Shown one piece after another: positions 2,101-15,087 of a stretch of DNA of 29,564 nucleotides (positions are counted from its first letter, which is position 1; every line of letters starts with the position of its first letter). Source of the DNA: a virus; IMG/VR virus record IMGVR_UViG_3300009159_003884, positions 1-29,564 of that record. One strand, given 5' to 3'. Made by a program: the position numbers and the translations under genes. The notes under the pieces were generated by a model that saw nothing but the letters and a program-made list of their open reading frames with translations, was not told the origin of the DNA and made no database searches.

Positions 2101-3999
2101 ATGGGAGCATTATTAGAATCAGGTCTTGTTGGTAATATCGGGTTAAAACACCTTAAAGTTATCAAAGAAGATACAATTAACAAATGGGATAAATTAGGAT
2201 TCCTAGAAGGCCTTAAAGGTCACCTAAAAGAGAACGTAGCTCAGTTATATGAGAATCAAGCGTCTCACTTAATAAACGAAGCTACTTCAGAAGGTTCTTC
2301 AGGTTCATTTGAAACTGTTGTATTCCCTATCGTTAGACGTGTATTCTCTAAATTATTAGCGAATGATATCGTTTCTGTACAAGCTATGAACTTACCAATC
2401 GGTAAATTATTCTACTTTGTACCTAAAATTCAAGGGTATGATGGAGGAACTGCTCAAACACCAGATAACAAATACGATGGTACATCAGGTCAACACTACG
2501 GTCCAGTTGGAGCGGTTAGTGGTTTAACTGCGGCACAAGCACAAGCAGGTGAAGGTTATGGTACATCATCTACTTACGGTAAGAAAAATCTTTATGATTT
2601 ATTCTACGAAGGAAATGAAGGACAATTAGACCCTCCAGGTTTATTCGATTACTCTAAAGGACAATGGTCAGCGATTACTCGGCCTACAGAAATCCAAGTT
2701 TGGAGTAACGGAGCATTAACTGACTTAGGAACGGGAACAACGTTAAACGGTCAAAACGTTAGAAAAGTAATTGTTTCTATGTGTGGATTTGCCGATACAG
2801 GTTCAGGAAAATTAATCGGACCTGATGGTAACGAATATGATTCTGAAACTTTCTTAGCGGATTTAAGAATTTTTGCTAACACTTCTTATACTTCAGGACC
2901 ATGGTCTGCAAGTACTGCATCAACAGAATGTCAAAACGTTTTTGATTCTGCTCATAACCCTAAATCATTATTGTTCAGAGTTGTTACTCAACAATACGGT
3001 CAAGGAATTGTATCAGGATTAAACAGTATGCAATCAGCACCATGGCCAACTGAAGGTAATGGTGGTCGATATAATAACATCTGTTCACCAAATGGTTGTA
3101 TCTATTTAGAAGTTGATTTATCATGTCCTGCATGTGCAACTTGTGGTTCAGATACTTTAGATGGTTACACAGGAACTACTATTGGTGTTATTGGAGATGG
3201 AGGTAACGTATTCAGTGCAGTATTCAGACGTTACAAAGAAATGGAATTTGAAGACAAAATCGGAGAAGTTTCTTTCGAATTGGATTCTGTTACAGTTTCT
3301 GTTTCTGAAAGAAAATTAAGAGCACAATGGTCTCCTGAGTTAGCTCAAGACGTTGCGGCTTTCCACAACATCGATGCTGAAGCTGAATTAACGGCTTTAT
3401 TATCTGAACAAGTTGCGGCTGAAATCGACCGTGAAATCCTTAGAGATTTACGTAAAGGTGCGGCATGGAACTTACGTTGGGATTACAACGGTTGGAGAAG
3501 AATTTCTGCAACAACTAACTACACTCAAAAAGACTGGAACCAAACATTAATCACTGCGATTAATCAGTTGTCAGCACAAATTCACAAATCTACTTTAAGA
3601 GGTGGAGCTAACTGGATTGTTGTTTCTTCTGAAGTTTCTGCGATTTTTGATGATTTAGAATACTTCCACGTATCTAACGCGTCTCCTGAGCAAGACCAAT
3701 ACAACATGGGTATTGAAAGAGTTGGTACATTAGCTGGTCGTTACCAAGTTTACCGTGACCCTTACTTCCCACCAAACCAAGTTTTGATTGGACACAAAGG
3801 AACGTCATTGTTAGACACAGGTTACATCTACGCACCATACGTACCATTACAATTAACACCTACAATGTACAATCCGTTCAACTTTACACCGATAAAAGGT
3901 ATTATGACCCGTTACGCAAAAAAGATGGTGAATAATAGATTTTACGGCAGAATTACTGTTGATGGTGTTCGTACATTCGATTTAAGAGAATTGAGATAA
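2101..3999 (+). CDS. Major capsid protein (T4 gp23-like)
   Basis: The 632-residue product builds the head shell (HK97 fold in this family). The N-terminal part holds FPIVRRVFSKLLANDIVSVQ and MNLPIGKLFYF, equivalent to the gp23 segment with VQPMNSPTG. The C-terminal half holds KLRAQWSPELAQDVAAFHN, DAEAELTALL, EIDREIL and GYIYAPYVPL, all close to gp23. A likely prohead-protease site, LINE|A, ends at residue 60, near the T4 cut at 65. Residues about 120-370 form a Gly/Ser-rich insertion, with four cysteines in CSPNGC and CPACATC near 328-348, so the protein is longer than gp23 (521). A strong terminator follows. Transcription probably comes from the boxes before the scaffold gene. Confidence 0.95.
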   Translation: MGALLESGLVGNIGLKHLKVIKEDTINKWDKLGFLEGLKGHLKENVAQLYENQASHLINEATSEGSSGSFETVVFPIVRRVFSKLLANDIVSVQAMNLPIGKLFYFVPKIQGYDGGTAQTPDNKYDGTSGQHYGPVGAVSGLTAAQAQAGEGYGTSSTYGKKNLYDLFYEGNEGQLDPPGLFDYSKGQWSAITRPTEIQVWSNGALTDLGTGTTLNGQNVRKVIVSMCGFADTGSGKLIGPDGNEYDSETFLADLRIFANTSYTSGPWSASTASTECQNVFDSAHNPKSLLFRVVTQQYGQGIVSGLNSMQSAPWPTEGNGGRYNNICSPNGCIYLEVDLSCPACATCGSDTLDGYTGTTIGVIGDGGNVFSAVFRRYKEMEFEDKIGEVSFELDSVTVSVSERKLRAQWSPELAQDVAAFHNIDAEAELTALLSEQVAAEIDREILRDLRKGAAWNLRWDYNGWRRISATTNYTQKDWNQTLITAINQLSAQIHKSTLRGGANWIVVSSEVSAIFDDLEYFHVSNASPEQDQYNMGIERVGTLAGRYQVYRDPYFPPNQVLIGHKGTSLLDTGYIYAPYVPLQLTPTMYNPFNFTPIKGIMTRYAKKMVNNRFYGRITVDGVRTFDLRELR

Positions 4000-4776: not shown

Positions 4777-4863
4777 AAAAATGTTTTCTTTATGTATGAT
4801 AATTAAATCATATGGTTTATTCATCATAACTCATTTATCCAATGTATATATAATTTTTGTTGT

Positions 4864-4871
4864 ATATTTAT
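4864..4871 (+). promoter_or_regulatory. Late-promoter-like box ATATTTAT before the secreted protein gene
   Basis: TATATTTATAATAA ends 15 bases before the ATG at 4887. This position argues for 4887 rather than the in-frame ATG at 4857, which lies upstream of the box. Confidence 0.5.
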
Positions 4872-4886
4872 AATAAACCATTAATC

Positions 4887-5954
4887 ATGAAAAATATATT
4901 ATTAAGTTTATTAGTTTTATTAACAAACATATCCGTTTCTCAAACATTATATAAATATGATTATGTTGAGACTTATAGTCTTGATTGGTCAGGAATATGG
5001 TGGACGCCAGCACCAACTGCGGGATATTACACTAACGCATCTGTTAGTCCAAGTGCAAGTGCGGCACTTTATGGTTTGGGTGGTGGAACATCGGGATATG
5101 AGTCAGATTGGTATTCGTTTCCAAATTTAGTTGTCAACCCATATAACGATTATTATTTCACATTTAGATTGGCGTCGTATAGATTTACCTCAACTAACGC
5201 TACAAGGGGTGTGGACGTTGGTGACTATATTATCGTTCAATTAAGTACTAATGGTGGTACAGTATATAATAACGAATTACAAATTACAGGTAATAATAAT
5301 GCGTATTGGAACTATAACACAAATGCTACTTATACTAAAACCGCAAATGGTGTGTTAACAACAATTGGTCCGTCTGCGGGTGGAGATAGGACTTCTACAG
5401 GTGACGGGTATTCTGTCATAAGATTAAATATCCCACCGAACACTTCTAATATTGCCATAGACATCTTTACAAGGTCCAACGCTTTAGGGGAAGAATGGTG
5501 GATGGATAATTTTCAATTATATGAGACAGTAAACAGTCCCCTACCAATTGAATTGTTATATTTTAATGGTGTATCGTACCCTAAATATAATGTATTACAA
5601 TGGTCCACCGCATCTGAAATTAACTCAAGTCATTATATTATTGAAAGAAGTCTTGATGGGATAAATTGGTCACAGGTGGGTAAAGTAAATGCGTCAGGTA
5701 ACTCAACAAGTGTGTTAGATTACAGTTATGTTGATTTATTTACAGAGTATACGATTAATTACTATAGATTGATACAGTTCGATTATGACGGTAAATCAAA
5801 AAAATATGATATTATTGGTTTAGATAATAGAACTAAACCAAAGACAATAGTTAAATATTTTAACTTATTGGGTCAAGAAATTAATGAATCAGACGCATTA
5901 GGTGTAATAATTGTCGTTTATAGTGACGGGACAACTCAAAGAATAATAAAATAA
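4887..5954 (+). CDS. Secreted beta-sandwich protein with T9SS-type sorting domain
   Basis: The 355-residue product begins with a clear signal peptide (Met-Lys, then a Leu-rich core, likely cut after residue 18 at SVS|Q). Residues about 20-215 look like a Trp/Tyr/Asn-rich beta-sandwich ending EEWWMDNFQLYE, as in carbohydrate-binding or adhesin jelly rolls. Residues from about 218 (PLPIELLYFNG, then SEINSSHYIIERS and YYRLIQFDYDG) are the Ig/Fn3-like linker common in Bacteroidota surface proteins. The last 35 residues (KYFNLLGQEI, then GVIIVVYSDGTTQRIIK) match the type A T9SS C-terminal sorting domain that directs export across the outer membrane. It is flanked by phage genes and has a phage-type promoter box, so it is a phage gene of host style, probably acquired from a host. 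Target and purpose (surface masking, adhesion, receptor change) are unknown. Confidence 0.82.
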   Translation: MKNILLSLLVLLTNISVSQTLYKYDYVETYSLDWSGIWWTPAPTAGYYTNASVSPSASAALYGLGGGTSGYESDWYSFPNLVVNPYNDYYFTFRLASYRFTSTNATRGVDVGDYIIVQLSTNGGTVYNNELQITGNNNAYWNYNTNATYTKTANGVLTTIGPSAGGDRTSTGDGYSVIRLNIPPNTSNIAIDIFTRSNALGEEWWMDNFQLYETVNSPLPIELLYFNGVSYPKYNVLQWSTASEINSSHYIIERSLDGINWSQVGKVNASGNSTSVLDYSYVDLFTEYTINYYRLIQFDYDGKSKKYDIIGLDNRTKPKTIVKYFNLLGQEINESDALGVIIVVYSDGTTQRIIK

Positions 5955-6579: not shown

Positions 6580-7344
6580 ATGAAAAAATTATATTTTTTA
6601 AATGAAGAAGAATCTGATAGGATTTTAAATCTTCATAAAGATGCCACTAAAAAACAATATCTTACTGAGAACAATAAAAAGTTAATTACTGAAGGGACAG
6701 GGACTAAAGATGACCCATTCACTGATGCCGATTTAACACCAGATGTTAATACTTTGGTTAATGCGATGGATGGTTGGGTAGACGGTGAGGACATCACAGA
6801 GGTTTATGGTGTGATAACAAAATATTTAACTTCATTTGCCATCAATGATGATGACCTAAGTGCTACAACAGTTGAACCGGCTATTAAAAGAATTACTACA
6901 TTATATAGTCTTGATGAAAATGGTGATAGTCTCGTTAATGACATTACTGGTGTTGGTACGACAACATTAGATAATGCAACAATTAAAAGGAAAAACCAAA
7001 TCGTTCAGATGATAAATAAAGGTCTTGCAACCGTAACTCCTGTCGCATCATCAGGAACTACATCAGGAACTACCGATACGTCCGAAATGGAAAAATGGAA
7101 AAATTTTCCTTGCGTCCCAAAACACCCAAAGGCAAAACAAGAAAAATTGAGTGACAGTAGTTTTACGTACTCAATTGATGGGATTTACTACTACAGTAAT
7201 GGTAGAAAACAATTGACTGATGGTACTACGGTTAATTATACATGTAACGACCCTGAATTTAAACCAACAAGAAGTGGCTCAACAGTTAAACAATTAACAA
7301 CACCTTCAGACGCAGAGTTAGATGCGGTTTTAGGTAAATTATAA
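6580..7344 (+). CDS. Unknown 254-residue accessory protein with (I/L)xE leader
   Basis: The family is not recognised. The N-terminus (FLNEEESDRILNLHK) is a charged helix related to that of the next gene, followed by two candidate prohead-protease sites, YLTE|N at about residue 30 and LITE|G at about 38. The body is Asp/Thr-rich, with a Ser/Gly/Thr linker (about 155-167) and a C-terminal domain holding two cysteines (FPCVPKHPK and NYTCNDPEF), perhaps forming a disulphide or binding a metal. There is no signal peptide or membrane segment. It is followed after six bases by 7351-7857, so the pair forms an operon with shared leader design. Virion packaging is a hypothesis. Confidence 0.75.
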   Translation: MKKLYFLNEEESDRILNLHKDATKKQYLTENNKKLITEGTGTKDDPFTDADLTPDVNTLVNAMDGWVDGEDITEVYGVITKYLTSFAINDDDLSATTVEPAIKRITTLYSLDENGDSLVNDITGVGTTTLDNATIKRKNQIVQMINKGLATVTPVASSGTTSGTTDTSEMEKWKNFPCVPKHPKAKQEKLSDSSFTYSIDGIYYYSNGRKQLTDGTTVNYTCNDPEFKPTRSGSTVKQLTTPSDAELDAVLGKL

Positions 7345-7350
7345 AAAAAT

Positions 7351-7857
7351 ATGAAAATGAACAAACGTATAATAATTTCTGAATCAGAAAGACAAAGTAT
7401 TTTAAACTTACATACTTCGTATAAAAATAAGTTAAATGAAGAAACACCTCTTGACACTAAAGATAATGCGACTCCATTTAGTCAAGCCACATTAGATAAA
7501 ACTAAAGAACTATCACAAAAAATAAGTAACATTAAACCTAGTGATAGTACACCAGCACCTGTAACAGATAGAAAAGTTGATTGTACGTCAACTAAAAATT
7601 CTGCAAGATGTAAACAAAAAGTTTTAGACGTACAAGTTAAAATCAATGACAAATGTAAAACAATAACACAAAAACTTGTAGAGGATGGGATTTTTGGGAA
7701 TAATACTTACAACTCAATTAAAACTTGTACAGGAATGGATTTATCGAGTGCTGGTAGAGCTGCGGCAATAAAGGCCGCAACACCTGCGGGAGACAATGCA
7801 CCCGCAACAACTACAACAACTACAATCGCAACAAAAGAGGTAAATCCAGAAGATTAA
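7351..7857 (+). CDS. Accessory protein with leader and peptidoglycan-binding-like domain
   Basis: The 168-residue product starts MKMNKRIIISESERQSILNL, closely matching the leader of the preceding gene, with a possible cut at KLNE|E near residue 30. Residues about 85-130 (KVLDVQVKI, then LVEDGIFGNNTYNSIKTC) resemble the PG_binding_1 repeat, in which a short helix with VxxxQ precedes a DGxFGxxT turn. Four cysteines flank this region. The end is an Ala/Thr-rich low-complexity tail. If the domain call is right the protein would touch the host cell wall, as in entry or lysis, but there is no catalytic domain. An alternative start is the ATG at 7357. It ends just before a strong bidirectional terminator. 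Confidence 0.72.
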   Translation: MKMNKRIIISESERQSILNLHTSYKNKLNEETPLDTKDNATPFSQATLDKTKELSQKISNIKPSDSTPAPVTDRKVDCTSTKNSARCKQKVLDVQVKINDKCKTITQKLVEDGIFGNNTYNSIKTCTGMDLSSAGRAAAIKAATPAGDNAPATTTTTTIATKEVNPED

Positions 7858-9316: not shown

Positions 9317-9628
9317 TTAAAAATCGAACTTATTATTTTTCATGTATGCGTTATCGGCATACCTCAAAAAATCTTTACCATATATTACGGACAGTCTGTC
9401 CATAACCAATTGAGGATTTTTTCTCATATAACGTAAGATATCTGCAGGAATTTGGTCACTATATCTCCCGAATAACCCTTCGATATCTTTTTCTCTTGGG
9501 GTCATTTTTATATGTGGTTCTACCGTAAATTTAGGTTTACCTATTTCATCATCGAATGATTGTTCGTTAATGATTCTTTTAACAAGTCTGTTTAAATCGG
9601 ACTCAGTTAGTTTAAATATTTTTTTCAT
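9317..9628 (-). CDS. Small protein with LTESDLxR leader and INE|Q site
   Basis: The 103-residue product begins MKKIFKLTESDLNRLVKRII, a leader type shared in form with 6580 and 7351 (hydrophobic, Ser/Thr-Glu-Ser, acidic, Arg, Ile/Leu). RIINE|QSF at about residue 22 fits (I/L)xE cleavage. The remaining 80 residues are charged and helical (DIEGLFGRYSDQIPADILRY, then MDRLSVIYGKDFLRYADNAY) and match no family I know. It lies five bases downstream of 9634-10233 in the same direction, so it is probably cotranscribed with the Cys-rich virion protein, which would fit a late, head-packaged protein. Confidence 0.7.
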   Translation of the reverse strand: MKKIFKLTESDLNRLVKRIINEQSFDDEIGKPKFTVEPHIKMTPREKDIEGLFGRYSDQIPADILRYMRKNPQLVMDRLSVIYGKDFLRYADNAYMKNNKFDF

Positions 9629-9633
9629 ATTGT

Positions 9634-9801
9634 TTAATTATTTAATCCGTTTATTCCTCCTAATACTATAGCATCTAACAGAACTACCGCATGACCTTGT
9701 TCGTTTGTCCAAGTAGGGTGTGGAGGAGTTATCGATACTGTATTACCACTACAATCGATAACACATACGTTATATTCAGTTCCCGCACTTATTGGTGGTG
9801 G
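9634..9801 (-). repeat. Copy 1 of a 168-bp repeated C-terminal module
   Basis: This segment codes 55 residues plus stop and matches 10263-10430. More than ten base differences are visible but nearly all are at third codon positions, leaving one amino acid change. That pattern points to selection on the protein rather than a very recent copy. Confidence 0.92.
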
Positions 9802-10233
9802 GTTTTCACAATCTTCACAACTTAAAAAGGGTCCTGAAACGTATGAATAATTTGTTACTCCCCTTGATGTTAACCCTGTAAAAGTAGCACAAAATGGGGT
9901 ATCTGAATCAAATTGTATTTCATAAATCATACCTATTGTAGGGGCACCATAGCCAGTACAAAAGTCATCGGATTCTATATCAATTTCATCTAATGTACCA
10001 CATCGTATAAATTTAAAATTTAAAGACTCTGTAAGACCACTCAAACACACACAACAATCTGTACGTAGTGAAATAAAGGATATATTTAGAGTTTCACCGC
10101 TCGATGTTTCTGAACCAACAGTACCACAGAATCTTTCCTCGCTAATATCGAACTCTACTGTAGTTCCTGGAGTTACTCCAGAAAGAATGTATACATCATT
10201 AGTCAAACATTCATTTATAATATAATTTGCCAT
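9634..10233 (-). CDS. Short Cys-rich virion-type protein sharing C-terminal module
   Basis: The 199-residue protein is beta-rich and built of short units, each closing in a CxxC pair followed by a further Cys (TDCCVC, SCEDC). It has no signal peptide. Its last 55 residues (from PPPISAGTEYN to GGINGLNN) are almost identical to the end of the neighbouring 584-residue protein; only one residue differs (His here, Arg there). It therefore looks like a short paralogue, perhaps born by duplication and internal loss. Position beside baseplate and structural genes suggests a tail fibre, spike or decoration protein; the shared tail may be an attachment or trimerisation module. It has its own promoter box at 10250-10257. 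Confidence 0.72.
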   Translation of the reverse strand: MANYIINECLTNDVYILSGVTPGTTVEFDISEERFCGTVGSETSSGETLNISFISLRTDCCVCLSGLTESLNFKFIRCGTLDEIDIESDDFCTGYGAPTIGMIYEIQFDSDTPFCATFTGLTSRGVTNYSYVSGPFLSCEDCENPPPISAGTEYNVCVIDCSGNTVSITPPHPTWTNEQGHAVVLLDAIVLGGINGLNN

Positions 10234-10249
10234 TTTAATTTGTTTTTAT

Positions 10250-10257
10250 ATAAATAT
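10250..10257 (-). promoter_or_regulatory. Late-promoter-like box ATATTTAT
   Basis: The minus strand reads GAGATATTTATATAAAAACA, ending 16 bases before the ATG at 10233. It sits in the 29-base gap between the two Cys-rich genes, so the shorter paralogue can be expressed on its own. Confidence 0.55.
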
Positions 10258-10262
10258 CTCGT

Positions 10263-10430
10263 TTAGTTATTTAATCCGTTTATTCCTCCTAATACTATTG
10301 CATCTAACAGAACTACCGCTCTACCTTGTTCATTTGTCCAAGTAGGGTGTGGAGGTGTTATAGACACAGTGTTACCACTACAATCTATAACACATACATT
10401 ATATTCAGTTCCCGCACTTATTGGTGGTGG
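10263..10430 (-). repeat. Copy 2 of the 168-bp repeated C-terminal module
   Basis: Equivalent of 9634-9801, at the end of the 584-residue Cys-rich protein. One additional Pro codon precedes the module here. The two copies lie about 630 bases apart in the same direction and could recombine, deleting the shorter gene. Confidence 0.92.
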
Positions 10431-12017
10431 TGGGTCAGGTGTACATTCAAAACAAATATCATAATAATTTGTTATTATTGGGGTAATTCCTGTAGGTTCT
10501 TGTGGACACGGATTCGCAATGAAATAACACTCTCCATTAGTTTTAAAAACATAAAATTCTCTTGGTTTAGAGTAATAATGTCTAACATAATCCTCTTGAG
10601 TCAAATTAAAAATATTATAGACTCCTGTTGAACAATTAATTGCTCTAACACCAATATTAATAGAGGAACAGTCTTCGCATGTAATTTCATCATCTGAAGT
10701 AAAATATTCCCCCGTTTCCAATCCTTCTCCGACAGGTTCAGTTAGTGTGACACAAATAAATGGAACACTACCCCAAGATAATTGATAAGTATCACCAGAA
10801 GTTGCGGTTGGCGGAACTGAAACATTAAATACATAAGTGGTTGCTGAAGTACATGCGGTCGCAGCATATAAAACCCTACTGAGGGTTCCTAGACAGTCAG
10901 GACAATCGACAAAAGTTTCAAAATTATATACATAATCACTTCCATTGTTCCCTTGACTAACACCAGTAACTTCTATACAACCATAGAAAGGATGATAAAG
11001 AATATCTCCCACACTAACAAATTGATAGGATGTTGTTACCCCATTAATTGAGGAAGATTCACAAGATTGCCATGATATAGTAAACCCATTACATTCAATA
11101 CATTCTTGACATGTCGGTGTTGGGTCAAAATTTAAATAATAATTTATTGTAACAGTTTCGCCAGTTGGCCCAACAACTGTAAAACATCCTAAGTCAGTTG
11201 ACAAACTAGATACCTCACCATTATTATATAACGCTGATGCCCAAACGACTTCGGTAATTTCAGGTTTTAAACAATCACTAAGTAATAATTTTGTATTACC
11301 TGATGATAAACATTCCTCACATAATCCTCTTTCATTAATTCCAAAATCACTTATAAATGTGTATACAAAAGAACAAGGGGATGGTGATACTCCTTGCACT
11401 ACACCACAATATAAATTTATACCATCTGAGTACGAAATTAAGTTGCCGACTAATGCAGACTGGAAACCAATAAGACCGACACAATCTATGATTTCATCAG
11501 TACATCTTATAACGTCATAGGATACGGTACTACCCGTTAAACAATCAGTACATCCTGTATAAACGGTATTTAAAGTGGTAATAGTACCAAGTTTTTCAGA
11601 TAATAATTGAGCGTTATATTCCCCTTCACTATATTGAATTATATCATCAATTGTGAAACACGAAGATATTGGTTTCCCTTCAACTGATATTGACCCATTA
11701 AATACTTCTCCTATTATCGGTACACCTGTAAAACTATCATAAGTAACAAAATATATACGATTCCCAATACAATCAGATATTCTAATGACCCCATAATTGT
11801 CTATTAAACAATCATCGCAAGTTTCGTATAGTGTTTGTGCGGAAATGGTACTACTGAGGTCATTGGTTAATGAGGTTATTTCATAACAATAATTAATTCC
11901 TCTAGTTGTTAGGTCATTAGTTGCCGACCAAATTTGACCAATAAGCGGGGAAAAAGAATTAAAGTTAATAGAAGATGATATACCATTTATACATAATGTT
12001 GAGTTAGGAGTTGCCAT
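10263..12017 (-). CDS. Long Cys-rich repeat protein, probable tail fibre or spike
   Basis: The 584-residue protein consists of about seven beta-rich units of 65-90 residues, each ending in CxxC with a third Cys some 10-15 residues later: CDDC, CTDC, CEEC, CQEC, CPDC, CEDC and CFEC. Between them recur Gly/Ser/Thr-rich strands, often with Tyr or Phe after a Cys. The pairs might bind metal or form disulphides outside the cell; neither can be decided here. The C-terminal 55 residues are shared with the shorter paralogue. It lies one base downstream of 12019-13494 (TAATATG), so the two are translated together. A receptor-binding or decoration role is inferred from repeats and context only. Confidence 0.75.
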   Translation of the reverse strand: MATPNSTLCINGISSSINFNSFSPLIGQIWSATNDLTTRGINYCYEITSLTNDLSSTISAQTLYETCDDCLIDNYGVIRISDCIGNRIYFVTYDSFTGVPIIGEVFNGSISVEGKPISSCFTIDDIIQYSEGEYNAQLLSEKLGTITTLNTVYTGCTDCLTGSTVSYDVIRCTDEIIDCVGLIGFQSALVGNLISYSDGINLYCGVVQGVSPSPCSFVYTFISDFGINERGLCEECLSSGNTKLLLSDCLKPEITEVVWASALYNNGEVSSLSTDLGCFTVVGPTGETVTINYYLNFDPTPTCQECIECNGFTISWQSCESSSINGVTTSYQFVSVGDILYHPFYGCIEVTGVSQGNNGSDYVYNFETFVDCPDCLGTLSRVLYAATACTSATTYVFNVSVPPTATSGDTYQLSWGSVPFICVTLTEPVGEGLETGEYFTSDDEITCEDCSSINIGVRAINCSTGVYNIFNLTQEDYVRHYYSKPREFYVFKTNGECYFIANPCPQEPTGITPIITNYYDICFECTPDPPPPISAGTEYNVCVIDCSGNTVSITPPHPTWTNEQGRAVVLLDAIVLGGINGLNN

Positions 12018-12018
12018 A

Positions 12019-13494
12019 TTATTTAGTATTTACTATCTGAAACTTTATTTGTCTTTTATAAGTATTTACCTCACCTGAACTTTCGACTTTAATATCAACA
12101 AAATATTCGTTAGGTATTTTATCTCTTGTATCAAAAATGAAATAATATTCATTTGGAGTTCTATTAATTTTTGTCCAATCTTGTACTTGTACTTCAGTCT
12201 GACCTTCTCTAACATAAACTCTATATGAAGCGTCAACTTTCTGTAATAATTTATTTGTACTGTAAGCTTGTTTGATTATTACACCAACTTTTCTAATGTC
12301 GGTATTTAAGATTTTTTCATCTTGTTTAATACCATAAAAATCAAATCCGTATAATTTAGGGTCAACCGAAGTCGTTCCTATTTGGATTGAGTTTTTATAT
12401 GGGTATAATGTAAAGTCATTAGTTATTGGTGGAATTGGGAATCCGTTTAAACTTAAGTTATACCATTTATCTGAGAAAGTACAAGGTGTTTTATAACCTG
12501 ATAATGGAGGTATTACAACTTCGTAAACCCCTTTGGTTTTTTGACAAGTTGTTAATCCTGTTAATCCAGGTATTTCACTACCTGACGCATCCAATATATT
12601 CACACTTGGTAAGTAATCCAAATTAACAGGTTGACCATTATCATATAGATAAAGGTAAAGTCTGTTAACGTGACCTAATGTGAATAAATTTCTATCATCA
12701 TCAATTAAGTCATTATAGTTAGTCTCTAAAAAGGGTTCGTAGAATGTTTGGGTATGTCTTGTGAAGAATTGTGTTTCATACGCATCAGTTAATCCGATTA
12801 GGTTTTCGACCTGAGGTTTATACGCGATACCCCATCCTGATACGTTAGTCAACGTACCATCTAAGATTGCGTTTATCTCATTGGTCATATCAAAATTAAC
12901 GTTCTCATTACCAAACTCAAAATGTTGTACGTCAACAATAGTTATCGCCGAATAATTAACTCCAGTCCCTGTTGCGGTATTTGTGTTGTCATATATTCCT
13001 GGCTCAGTCCACACTCCAATAGTGGTCGTTTGAACCCAATTAGATGGTCTGTCAGAGAAGTTCTTATCAAAGTTACTATAATCATAGATTAAGTCCGCAA
13101 AGTCATAACCAACCCCTTCATCCCACACTTGTGGTGTTGACTCGTCATCATTAATGTACGGAATTCTAAATAAGATTAGGTCAAATGAAGTTGCCCTCAT
13201 TCTTGCCTGAGACGTTTTAGTGTTCAACAAGTCAACATTAAACCATGACGTATTAGTCATTCTTAACGTATGTTTAGTTGTGTCGGGACAAGTGGTACTG
13301 ATAGTACCATCAAAAACCTTTTCCATTAATAATGAAAGGTCTAAGTCAAAAATAAAACGACTATACCCATTTGGAAACTGAGATGTTGCCAAAGAGCCGT
13401 AAAATAATTCTGTCACAGGGTTTCTCCCCGTGTTGGTAAAACTATTAGATACTATCGTGTTATTTTTACTGAAATACGAATTGTTAATTGACAT
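12019..13494 (-). CDS. Large beta-rich virion protein, DNRLRE-like N-terminal half
   Basis: The 491-residue product begins MSINNSYFSKNNTIVSNSFT. The first half has the pattern of DNRLRE-type beta-sandwich domains: TNTGRNPVTELFYG, then a strand SRFIFDLDL, a WDEGVGYDF turn, two Trp segments and a closing VNFDMTNEINAILDG with GWGIAYK. The second half is beta-rich with Ig-like strands (KGVYEVVIPPLSGY, YFVDIKVESSGEVNTYKRQI). I prefer the ATG at 13494 because the longer frame would need a TTG start at 13509 inside the promoter box. Between a baseplate gene and fibre-like genes, a neck, whisker or baseplate-attached structural role is plausible. The domain resemblance is by eye. Confidence 0.7.
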   Translation of the reverse strand: MSINNSYFSKNNTIVSNSFTNTGRNPVTELFYGSLATSQFPNGYSRFIFDLDLSLLMEKVFDGTISTTCPDTTKHTLRMTNTSWFNVDLLNTKTSQARMRATSFDLILFRIPYINDDESTPQVWDEGVGYDFADLIYDYSNFDKNFSDRPSNWVQTTTIGVWTEPGIYDNTNTATGTGVNYSAITIVDVQHFEFGNENVNFDMTNEINAILDGTLTNVSGWGIAYKPQVENLIGLTDAYETQFFTRHTQTFYEPFLETNYNDLIDDDRNLFTLGHVNRLYLYLYDNGQPVNLDYLPSVNILDASGSEIPGLTGLTTCQKTKGVYEVVIPPLSGYKTPCTFSDKWYNLSLNGFPIPPITNDFTLYPYKNSIQIGTTSVDPKLYGFDFYGIKQDEKILNTDIRKVGVIIKQAYSTNKLLQKVDASYRVYVREGQTEVQVQDWTKINRTPNEYYFIFDTRDKIPNEYFVDIKVESSGEVNTYKRQIKFQIVNTK

Positions 13495-13508
13495 TGAATC
13501 TTTATTCA

Positions 13509-13516
13509 ATAAATAT
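13509..13516 (-). promoter_or_regulatory. Late-promoter-like box ATATTTAT
   Basis: The minus strand reads TTGATATTTATTGAATAA, ending 14 bases before the ATG at 13494. It overlaps the stop codon of the upstream baseplate gene and gives the downstream structural genes their own start of transcription. Confidence 0.5.
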
Positions 13517-15087
13517 CAATTAATTCGGATATTTTGATTTAAGATTGAATTTTCAGCATCTGCAAGTATTTGGTCAATCTCTGTTGTGGTCTGGCCATTA
13601 CCTGCTGCAACAGGAATAGGTGGTACTGTTGCAATTGCATGAACATGTCCTTTAACAAAGGAAAATATTTTTCTAAGTAGAATCATTAACTCATCGCCTC
13701 TTACAGTAGGATAAGTTATATTTGAAAGACTTTTTTCGTCCCCAATAAATTTGTCCTGAGGAATACCGTATAAAGTTTGTCGTAAACTAATCTGTCCTTT
13801 AGGTCCCGTTGAGTCTTGCGATAATAAATAAACTCGTTGAGCCCCTAACACTCCATAAGTAATTGATGATGGGGTAAATTCTGCGGGCGTATATGTTTCC
13901 TTTTTAATCTTGGATTGTGGGCCTATTAATGGTTTACCATTCTTATTCTCCGACACCAAGAAAAATCCACTAGTCACTTTACCTGTAGATAATTTTATTT
14001 TAGAATAAAATCTAACATAATTACCTAATTCCACCACATCATTTACCGTTGAGGAATTTGAAAATTTAATTCCCGTCTCATACGTTAATTTTGATGGTGT
14101 TACAATAAATGGAAACGAATCGTTAGAAAAGTTTTGTTGATTATTAATAGTATATCCCGTAATATCTAAGTTACCTTCAAACAACCCTATTACAAATTTA
14201 TTGATTAAATAAACCGCATCATCAAACGAGACATTAGTAAATTTAAACTCCTCTAATGGTCCTGTATAGTTAGTTCCGATACTTAATTTAGTTATGGTGT
14301 CAGGTTTAAAGTTCTGAGTGTTCACTATATCAGATGTCGGTAATACGTTATATAGACCCACGGTTCCATTAAAAACGTTTTGGGAATTCTCAAGATTATC
14401 GATATTCCATATGACCATTTTTTTAACGACTTTGACAATTTCTTGTAATTTAGTTTCGGTTTGAGGCTCCCCTAAAACTTTTGTTTGGGTAAAGTTAGAT
14501 AATTGTAAAAACGACCTAAATTGATTCCCAATAGGGAGTTTATCCTTAGACAAGTTTTTAGTTTTTCCCGCCCTTATTAAAACTTCGTTCTCTTTTATCA
14601 CAACATCGGCACTTCCTCTACCTAAAAGAGAATTATCCCCAGGTTCGGGAAAAACACCGTAACTATTTATGTCTCGATAAGTACCATCAATATTTTTAAT
14701 ACTTCGACCCTCTTTGATTCTATCACCTGCGGAAAGAAATTTCTTGGCTCCTTGGTAATTTTCAAAAGGGGTTGTCATTGGTGATGAGAATGGCCCTTGA
14801 ATATAAAATTGGTTTTGGAAAACAAAATTTTTATCCTGATAAATTATATGAACATATTCATTTTTTTTTGGGGTTTGGCTGATGTAAAATGGTAATAATG
14901 GTAAAAATACAATAGGGTCTTTGGTAGTCCATATGTCCTTTTCTTCATCCCAATCAGGCACTGCCTTAATAATCGATGCGTAGTCTTTTGTTTCGGGTAT
15001 AACACGAATTCTACCCAACATCATTGGGTCTTGGTCGTCATAGACAATACCAGGAAATATTATTTGGTCTCTGTTAATTACGTCCAT
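13516..15087 (-). CDS. Baseplate hub protein with gp5-like OB-fold
   Basis: The 523-residue protein opens with [20 protein letters not shown] (about residues 9-28), the hallmark of the OB-fold at the start of T4 gp5 and related spike proteins, where a V-x-D-xxDPxxLGRV pattern is typical. Further on, [20 protein letters not shown] (about 158-177) is typical of the phage baseplate OB/beta part. No lysozyme domain follows, unlike T4 gp5. Near the end is [19 protein letters not shown] (about 480-500), a His- and Pro-rich stretch that could sit near a metal-binding needle tip. It overlaps 15074-15295 by 14 bases, so translation is likely coupled. Assembly into the tail hub is the expected role; lack of lysozyme means another protein must open the wall. 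Confidence 0.78.

Follow-up and report, generated by a model that had tools for sequence, protein, structure and literature searches.

A small C-terminal module shared by unrelated proteins, and also encoded alone, in a fixed gene slot of uncultured T4-like phages

Two neighbouring genes of an uncultured virus encode proteins of very different length that end in nearly the same 55 residues, which raises the question of what role such a shared ending (the tail) could play. Both genes lie in a stretch of 29,564 nucleotides, positions 1 to 29,564 of IMG/VR record IMGVR_UViG_3300009159_003884, referred to here as the window. By its gp23-type major capsid gene at positions 2101-3999 (phrog_138 major head protein, E 1e-68), the window belongs to a T4-like phage, and the closest isolates by this gene are Microcystis phage Mel-JY01 and Flavobacterium phage immuto. 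The original prediction, made from the letters alone, proposed that the tail was a socket for interchangeable fibres, a trimerisation cap or a cleavable chaperone. The features of the locus are collected in Table 1.

Table 1. Tail genes of the window and the genes that bound them
Feature	Position	Strand	Basis or remark
Short gene, 199 aa	9634..10233	-	Two CxxC-closed beta units and 55-residue tail
Tail module of the short gene, 55 aa	9637..9801	-	Near-identity to the copy in the long gene
Body of the short gene, two CxxC units	9802..10233	-	Fast evolving: dN/dS 0.82-1.11 against L003/L005/L006 orthologues
Long gene, 584 aa	10263..12017	-	Seven CxxC units and tail
Tail module of the long gene, 55 aa	10266..10430	-	Near-identity to the copy in the short gene
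Body of the long gene, seven CxxC units	10431..12017	-	Fast evolving: dN/dS 0.45-0.69 against L003/L004/L005 orthologues
496-aa protein, nearly frozen upstream neighbour, candidate tail partner	12019..13509	-	Tail gene downstream in 37/37 loci; dN/dS 0.03-0.11
523-aa baseplate hub / central spike (gp5)-like protein, weak assignment	13516..15087	-	phrog_430; T4 gp5 N-terminus
103-aa gene, downstream bound of the slot	9317..9628	-	Synteny

Both open reading frames were found where they had been placed, on the minus strand. The last 55 residues of their products (PPPISAGTEYNV...LGGINGLNN) differ at a single His/Arg position, where the codons CAT and AGA are unlike at all three bases. CxxC motifs number 2 in the 199-aa protein and 7 in the 584-aa protein, plus one overlapping at 306, in agreement with the two and about seven units originally counted; the cysteines amount to 12 and 34, respectively. 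Identical bases per 30 nt between the two genes reach 25-29 within the tail and 21 at its 5´ edge, against 6-14 upstream and 12 past the stop. The identity changes sharply at both borders of the tail, which confines the shared unit to ~165 nt at the 3´ end.

Synonymous differences between the two window tails do exist, with "many" standing for about ten: 10 were counted over 54 aligned codons. The resulting dN of 0.020 and dS of 0.325 (NG86, Nei-Gojobori) give a dN/dS of about 0.06. This ratio supports the protein-level selection that had been read from these sites, but selection is only part of the argument, since the likeness of the two tails is also maintained by gene conversion or module exchange.

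IMG/VR was scanned with the tail and with two tail profiles, and overlaps were removed, which left 83 loci including the window (labelled here by L numbers); their 115 tail ORFs encode 109 distinct proteins. The tail forms the extreme C-terminus in 114 of the 115 ORFs, the exception being a truncated copy in L153. Tail-ended proteins span 53-1374 aa across this locus set and a second one: body-less proteins of 54-61 aa and a largest protein of 1188 aa occur in the first, and proteins of up to 1374 aa in the second. The bodies comprise one, two, several or seven CxxC units, DUF5122/delta-60 propellers (E 1e-279 and 2e-44), a leucine-rich repeat body (E 3e-25), CxxC units interrupted by a YncE-like propeller, a Thr/Pro linker, and a 256-aa protein without family assignment (L088). 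In many phages, a complete gene for 53-62 aa consists of the tail alone. The tail is thus a module on unrelated bodies in proteins of different length, which fits the proposed "socket for interchangeable fibres", and it is not confined to full-length homologues of the two window proteins, so the refuting condition named with the original prediction fails.

Each of 20 records of 92-322 kb carries one or two tails. The further suggestion that the module may be a "general tag" holds for an uncultured T4-like group with a few relatives and fails for phages in general: three different tail queries gave no significant tblastn match in the 50,697 records of INPHARED. The 584-aa protein likewise gave nothing significant in INPHARED by tblastn, and a Synechococcus phage match to a tail/long-protein query (E 9) was dropped, as it fell inside a giant protein. 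In GTDB genome contigs, no relative was found with the tail and 496-aa profiles.

Some individual loci add variations to this picture. In L044, L045, L091, L164 and L175, propeller-like domains lie between the CxxC units of tail proteins of 918-939 aa; only that of L164 matches a known family (YncE-like), the rest having been judged by eye. In L153 (5346-6141), the first tail lacks its 3´ end in comparison with L152, which fits a deletion of ~57 bp between tandem tail genes and represents either a natural mutant or an assembly error. In L158 and L159 (1542-6189), tail genes of 79 and 130 aa flank two genes, one encoding a 980-aa protein with GN.FY.N.IGN repeats and the other a 335-aa fibre-like protein.

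Upstream of the tail genes, the slot in the window is preceded by the 496-aa gene, the gp5-like hub gene and further conserved genes. The 496-aa protein has no Pfam or PHROG family, and the assignment of the 523-aa family is weak, as phrog_430 was matched in 5 of 17 members (best E 7.5e-4) and the T4 gp5 N-terminus at E 0.14. A second selection, by the 496-aa family in IMG/VR, returned at least 581 relatives, of which the best 80 were taken; 37 did not overlap with the earlier loci. In all 37 new loci (from the best 80 of at least 581), a tail gene lies 2-111 bp downstream of the 496-aa gene, and in 14 of these 37 a bare tail of 53-62 aa stands alone in the slot; small conserved genes come next, after 2-141 bp, and an adhesin is absent. 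The minimal state is therefore the bare tail, to which a body may be added at the N-terminus, and in this respect above all the picture departs from the first reading of the two window genes. Supply of the adhesin in trans was considered and rejected: DUF5122, the sole body type searched for, occurs elsewhere in just 2 of 12 records.

The slot is not the only neighbourhood of the tail. No 496-aa homologue was detected in the 153-kb record of L094, where the tail gene comes after a tail-sheath gene; docking may thus involve another partner there, or one of a more general kind. In L060-L062, the tail lies away from the 496-aa gene, near terminase and portal genes. These neighbourhoods fit a virion role without pointing to one site. 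Within L094:3-6156, the tail-sheath gene itself has a Thr/Pro-rich N-terminal extension.

A different arrangement is found in L012 and L015, where the slot holds a tail-less adhesin of 1490 and 1244 aa followed by a tail protein of 71 and 73 aa. The L012 adhesin carries DUF5122 and a LamG-like domain, and the partial contig L010 shows the same split arrangement. The two genes are separated by 15-26 bp and lie in different frames with stops between them, on which grounds joining by readthrough or frameshift was rejected. By eye, the N-terminus of the small tail protein resembles the last strand of the final unit in fused homologues. This resemblance suggests gene fission, and the adhesin and the tail protein may be physically associated.

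The comparison of evolutionary rates separates the parts of the locus. In comparisons of the window with its close relatives, bodies have a dN/dS of 0.45-1.11, tails one of 0.07-0.21 and the 496-aa protein one of 0.03-0.11; other body pairs gave 1.26 (L049/L053) and 0.25 (L055/L140). Host-facing modules on a fixed mount should show just such fast bodies, a slow tail and a frozen neighbour, though besides adaptation, recombination or relaxed constraint can also produce a high dN/dS in bodies. The 254-aa family encoded elsewhere in the window (6580-7344, +) has a dN/dS of 0.33-1.2 between close genomes, like the adhesin bodies, in poor alignments.

Bodies and tails also differ in their histories. 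Bodies are 94% identical against 64% for the tails in L049/L053, 87% against 64% in L055/L140, and 86% against 40% in L008/L146. The tail of the window 199-aa protein is 100% identical in protein sequence to the tail of the L003 584-aa protein, and their bodies have no similarity. Bodies and tails have therefore been re-paired during evolution. At the DNA level, the tail of the window 199-aa gene is 95% identical to the 584-type tail of L003 and 90% to its short-type tail, and the similarity of the two window tails would in part be concerted evolution.

Nine other two-copy genomes were tested and have a similarly sharp homology border, though in one of them, L088, the shared stretch is shorter. 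Among 32 two-tail genomes, mean within-genome tail identity was 0.73 versus 0.53 when shuffled (0/10,000; phylogeny not corrected), but few genomes (L144, L055, L103 and L175) have the partner tail as the clear nearest relative. Tail identity is correlated with 496-aa identity over 1,891 locus pairs (rho 0.38; Mantel 0/500), and rho is 0.32 among pairs without detectable body similarity.

The tail can be searched for with the tag SA[GN]TE...C..xC.G...PPHP.[WY]...LGG.NGLN. Among 142 distinct tails, a Gly-Gly and a Gly are fixed, while Cys, Cys, Pro and His exceed 90%, and no Ser or Lys, nor any Ser/Lys pair, is invariant. Pfam and PHROG scans gave nothing significant for the 199-aa and 584-aa proteins, for 38 tails, or for 10 stand-alone or short tails. 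A literature search on the 55-residue module found no paper describing it. Within the literature and databases searched, the module family, its C-terminal placement, its bare-gene form and its range of bodies appear undescribed.

The AlphaFold2 monomer model of the 199-aa protein (mean pLDDT 89, pTM 0.70) predicts two beta units of five strands; after each comes a short helix in which the CxxC lies. The tail is modelled as short strands (pLDDT about 80, and 66 over the last ten residues). Foldseek found no match to this model below E 0.8 in the PDB, and the best match in BFVD (E 6e-3) was to an unnamed protein. VIA-align gave a best Z of 5.8 (PriA, Tudor domains) over residues 70-147; this is within the range of common arrangements, so "SH3/Tudor-like" is only a loose description of the CxxC units. 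The AlphaFold2 model of the 496-aa protein has a pLDDT of 53 and no usable fold. PDB profile searches with the 199-aa, 496-aa, 523-aa and 636-aa families gave nothing usable except the weak gp5 hint, and WD40 matches of the 496-aa family were rejected, as they span just 35 residues.

Taken together, these data somewhat favour, at a little better than an even chance, an explanation in which the tail is an obligatory small particle protein, produced from a fixed slot, that docks optional and swappable N-terminal adhesin bodies. The tail would be a self-sufficient part of the particle in this phage group; it is made from one gene slot directly 3´ of the 496-aa gene, with a protein of 53-62 aa as its minimal form. 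CxxC-closed small beta units, beta-propellers, leucine-rich repeats and linkers are its optional N-terminal bodies, all of an adhesin type. Perhaps as a cap or adaptor, the tail would attach the protein to the particle, the 496-aa protein or a baseplate/tail structure being the likeliest site, and the body would project outwards to bind the host surface or particles. Bodies are gained, lost and exchanged, with the tail and its neighbour constant. Where tail genes occur in tandem, gene conversion or homologous exchange would keep the tails alike, and both products could use one docking site.

The swapping of receptor-binding bodies on a conserved anchor is already known, usually with an N-terminal anchor on a trimeric fibre. 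In Klebsiella Przondovirus tailspikes, N-terminal anchors carry interchangeable receptor-binding bodies, and such anchor/adapter tailspikes and fibres resemble the present case in that the terminal module is constant and the bodies recombine against it (PMC12692247). In contrast to them, the tail is C-terminal, about 55 aa long, without a known family and a complete gene in many phages. The proposed arrangement also recalls the Ig-like domains that phage structural proteins may carry as surface-binding additions. There the core is a large capsid or tail protein, whereas here the core would be a 55-aa protein and the additions would include propellers, leucine-rich repeats and CxxC units.

An unlikely alternative is that the tail helps the fibre-like body, and perhaps the 496-aa protein, to fold or trimerise, either in the manner of a foldon or as a chaperone in cis or in trans, with docking located elsewhere. 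Conserved C-terminal domains on varied fibres are often folding modules, such as the S74-type chaperones and the T4 fibritin foldon. Moreover, a stand-alone tail beside the 496-aa gene could be the separate chaperone of that protein, and L012/L015 encode the tail separately, next to an adhesin that lacks it. However, the slot contains a tail with neither body nor adhesin in 14 of the 37 loci (from the best 80 of at least 581). The Pfam scan of tails gave no match to the S74 profile and, in 38 tails, none to a foldon/fibritin family; the residues that are fixed are the Gly-Gly and Gly, not a Ser/Lys pair suited to self-cleavage. The bare genes, the missing pair and the lack of an S74 or other family match speak against the cleavable intramolecular chaperone proposed originally. 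Endosialidase-type S74 chaperones do share with the tail the placement of a conserved C-terminal domain on unrelated fibre and spike bodies, but the S74 domain is much larger and the tail occurs body-less. Similarly, the fibritin foldon is a very small beta module at the C-terminus of a protein from a T4-like phage, as the tail is predicted to be; the tail differs in being twice as long and a stand-alone gene. A PAAR-like cap closing the tip of the gp5-like spike, with the bodies as optional tip extensions, is less probable still. By analogy, the tail resembles the PAAR tips of T6SS/eCIS and T4 gp5.4 in being a small domain encoded near a spike gene (the slot is two genes from the gp5-like gene), alone or partnered; PAAR proteins are small obligatory domains with optional fused or adjacent partners ("clips") and C-terminal toxin extensions (PMC8651086). 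In addition, no PAAR-motif gene was found across 12 large whole records in which controls were detected, so that the spike tip would otherwise be vacant. Against this, PAAR (PF05488) was absent from the Pfam scan of 38 tails, listing up to E 5, the tail directly adjoins the 496-aa gene rather than the gp5-like gene, and the bodies are N-terminal and adhesin-like, not toxins.

Two further explanations place the emphasis on the DNA. The shared 165 nt could mainly be a recombination handle for body exchange, with the function of the tail protein secondary, as the sharp DNA borders, the patchy near-identity of tandem copies and the re-pairing of bodies and tails would suggest. This is very improbable: tails show many synonymous and few non-synonymous differences (dN/dS 0.07-0.21), their motifs are still recognisable between distant phages at about 40-55% protein identity, and single-copy stand-alone tails persist. 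Such protein-level constraint makes a pure recombination handle insufficient. It is even harder to credit that the window simply holds two ordinary fast-evolving paralogues with a recently converted C-terminus and no special role; gene conversion is visible in the window, but the idea is contradicted by the >100 loci in which one conserved slot holds the module, either on unrelated bodies or as a gene of its own.

The docking explanation remains the preferred one. By sequence comparison the tail is a conserved terminal module on exchangeable, fast-evolving bodies, a trait of modular receptor-binding proteins with a terminal anchor, to which the window proteins may belong. The broader proposal, that a virion protein family of ~55 aa is obligatory and serves as a universal C-terminal display socket, bare or body-fused, in a large uncultured T4-like group, is evenly balanced. 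If true, adsorption modules would change through replacement of whatever lies N-terminal to the cap, and the particle itself would not change. Because the tail is a complete gene in many relatives, core and optional decoration are separable from sequence alone. With the tail tag, candidate adhesins could also be found across a large uncultured phage group, and the tail itself is a compact candidate display scaffold.

Finally, other genes of the window deserve mention. An amphipathic tag such as MKKIFKLTESDLNRLVKRIINE starts unrelated small proteins at 9317-9628 (-), 6580-7344 (+) and 7351-7857 (+), and a similar N-terminal tag is present on genes after the slot in many loci. By analogy with T4 internal head proteins, it could be a capsid-targeting sequence, cleaved after NE. 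The gp23-like capsid protein (2101-3999, +) has a Cys-rich insert, SCPACATCGSD, reminiscent of the CxxC units. A 365-aa protein (4857-5954, +), without an NCBIfam match, begins with what looks like a signal peptide and has a C-terminus that recalls the T9SS sorting domains of Bacteroidota; its size varies between relatives, and it may be a phage protein exported by the host.
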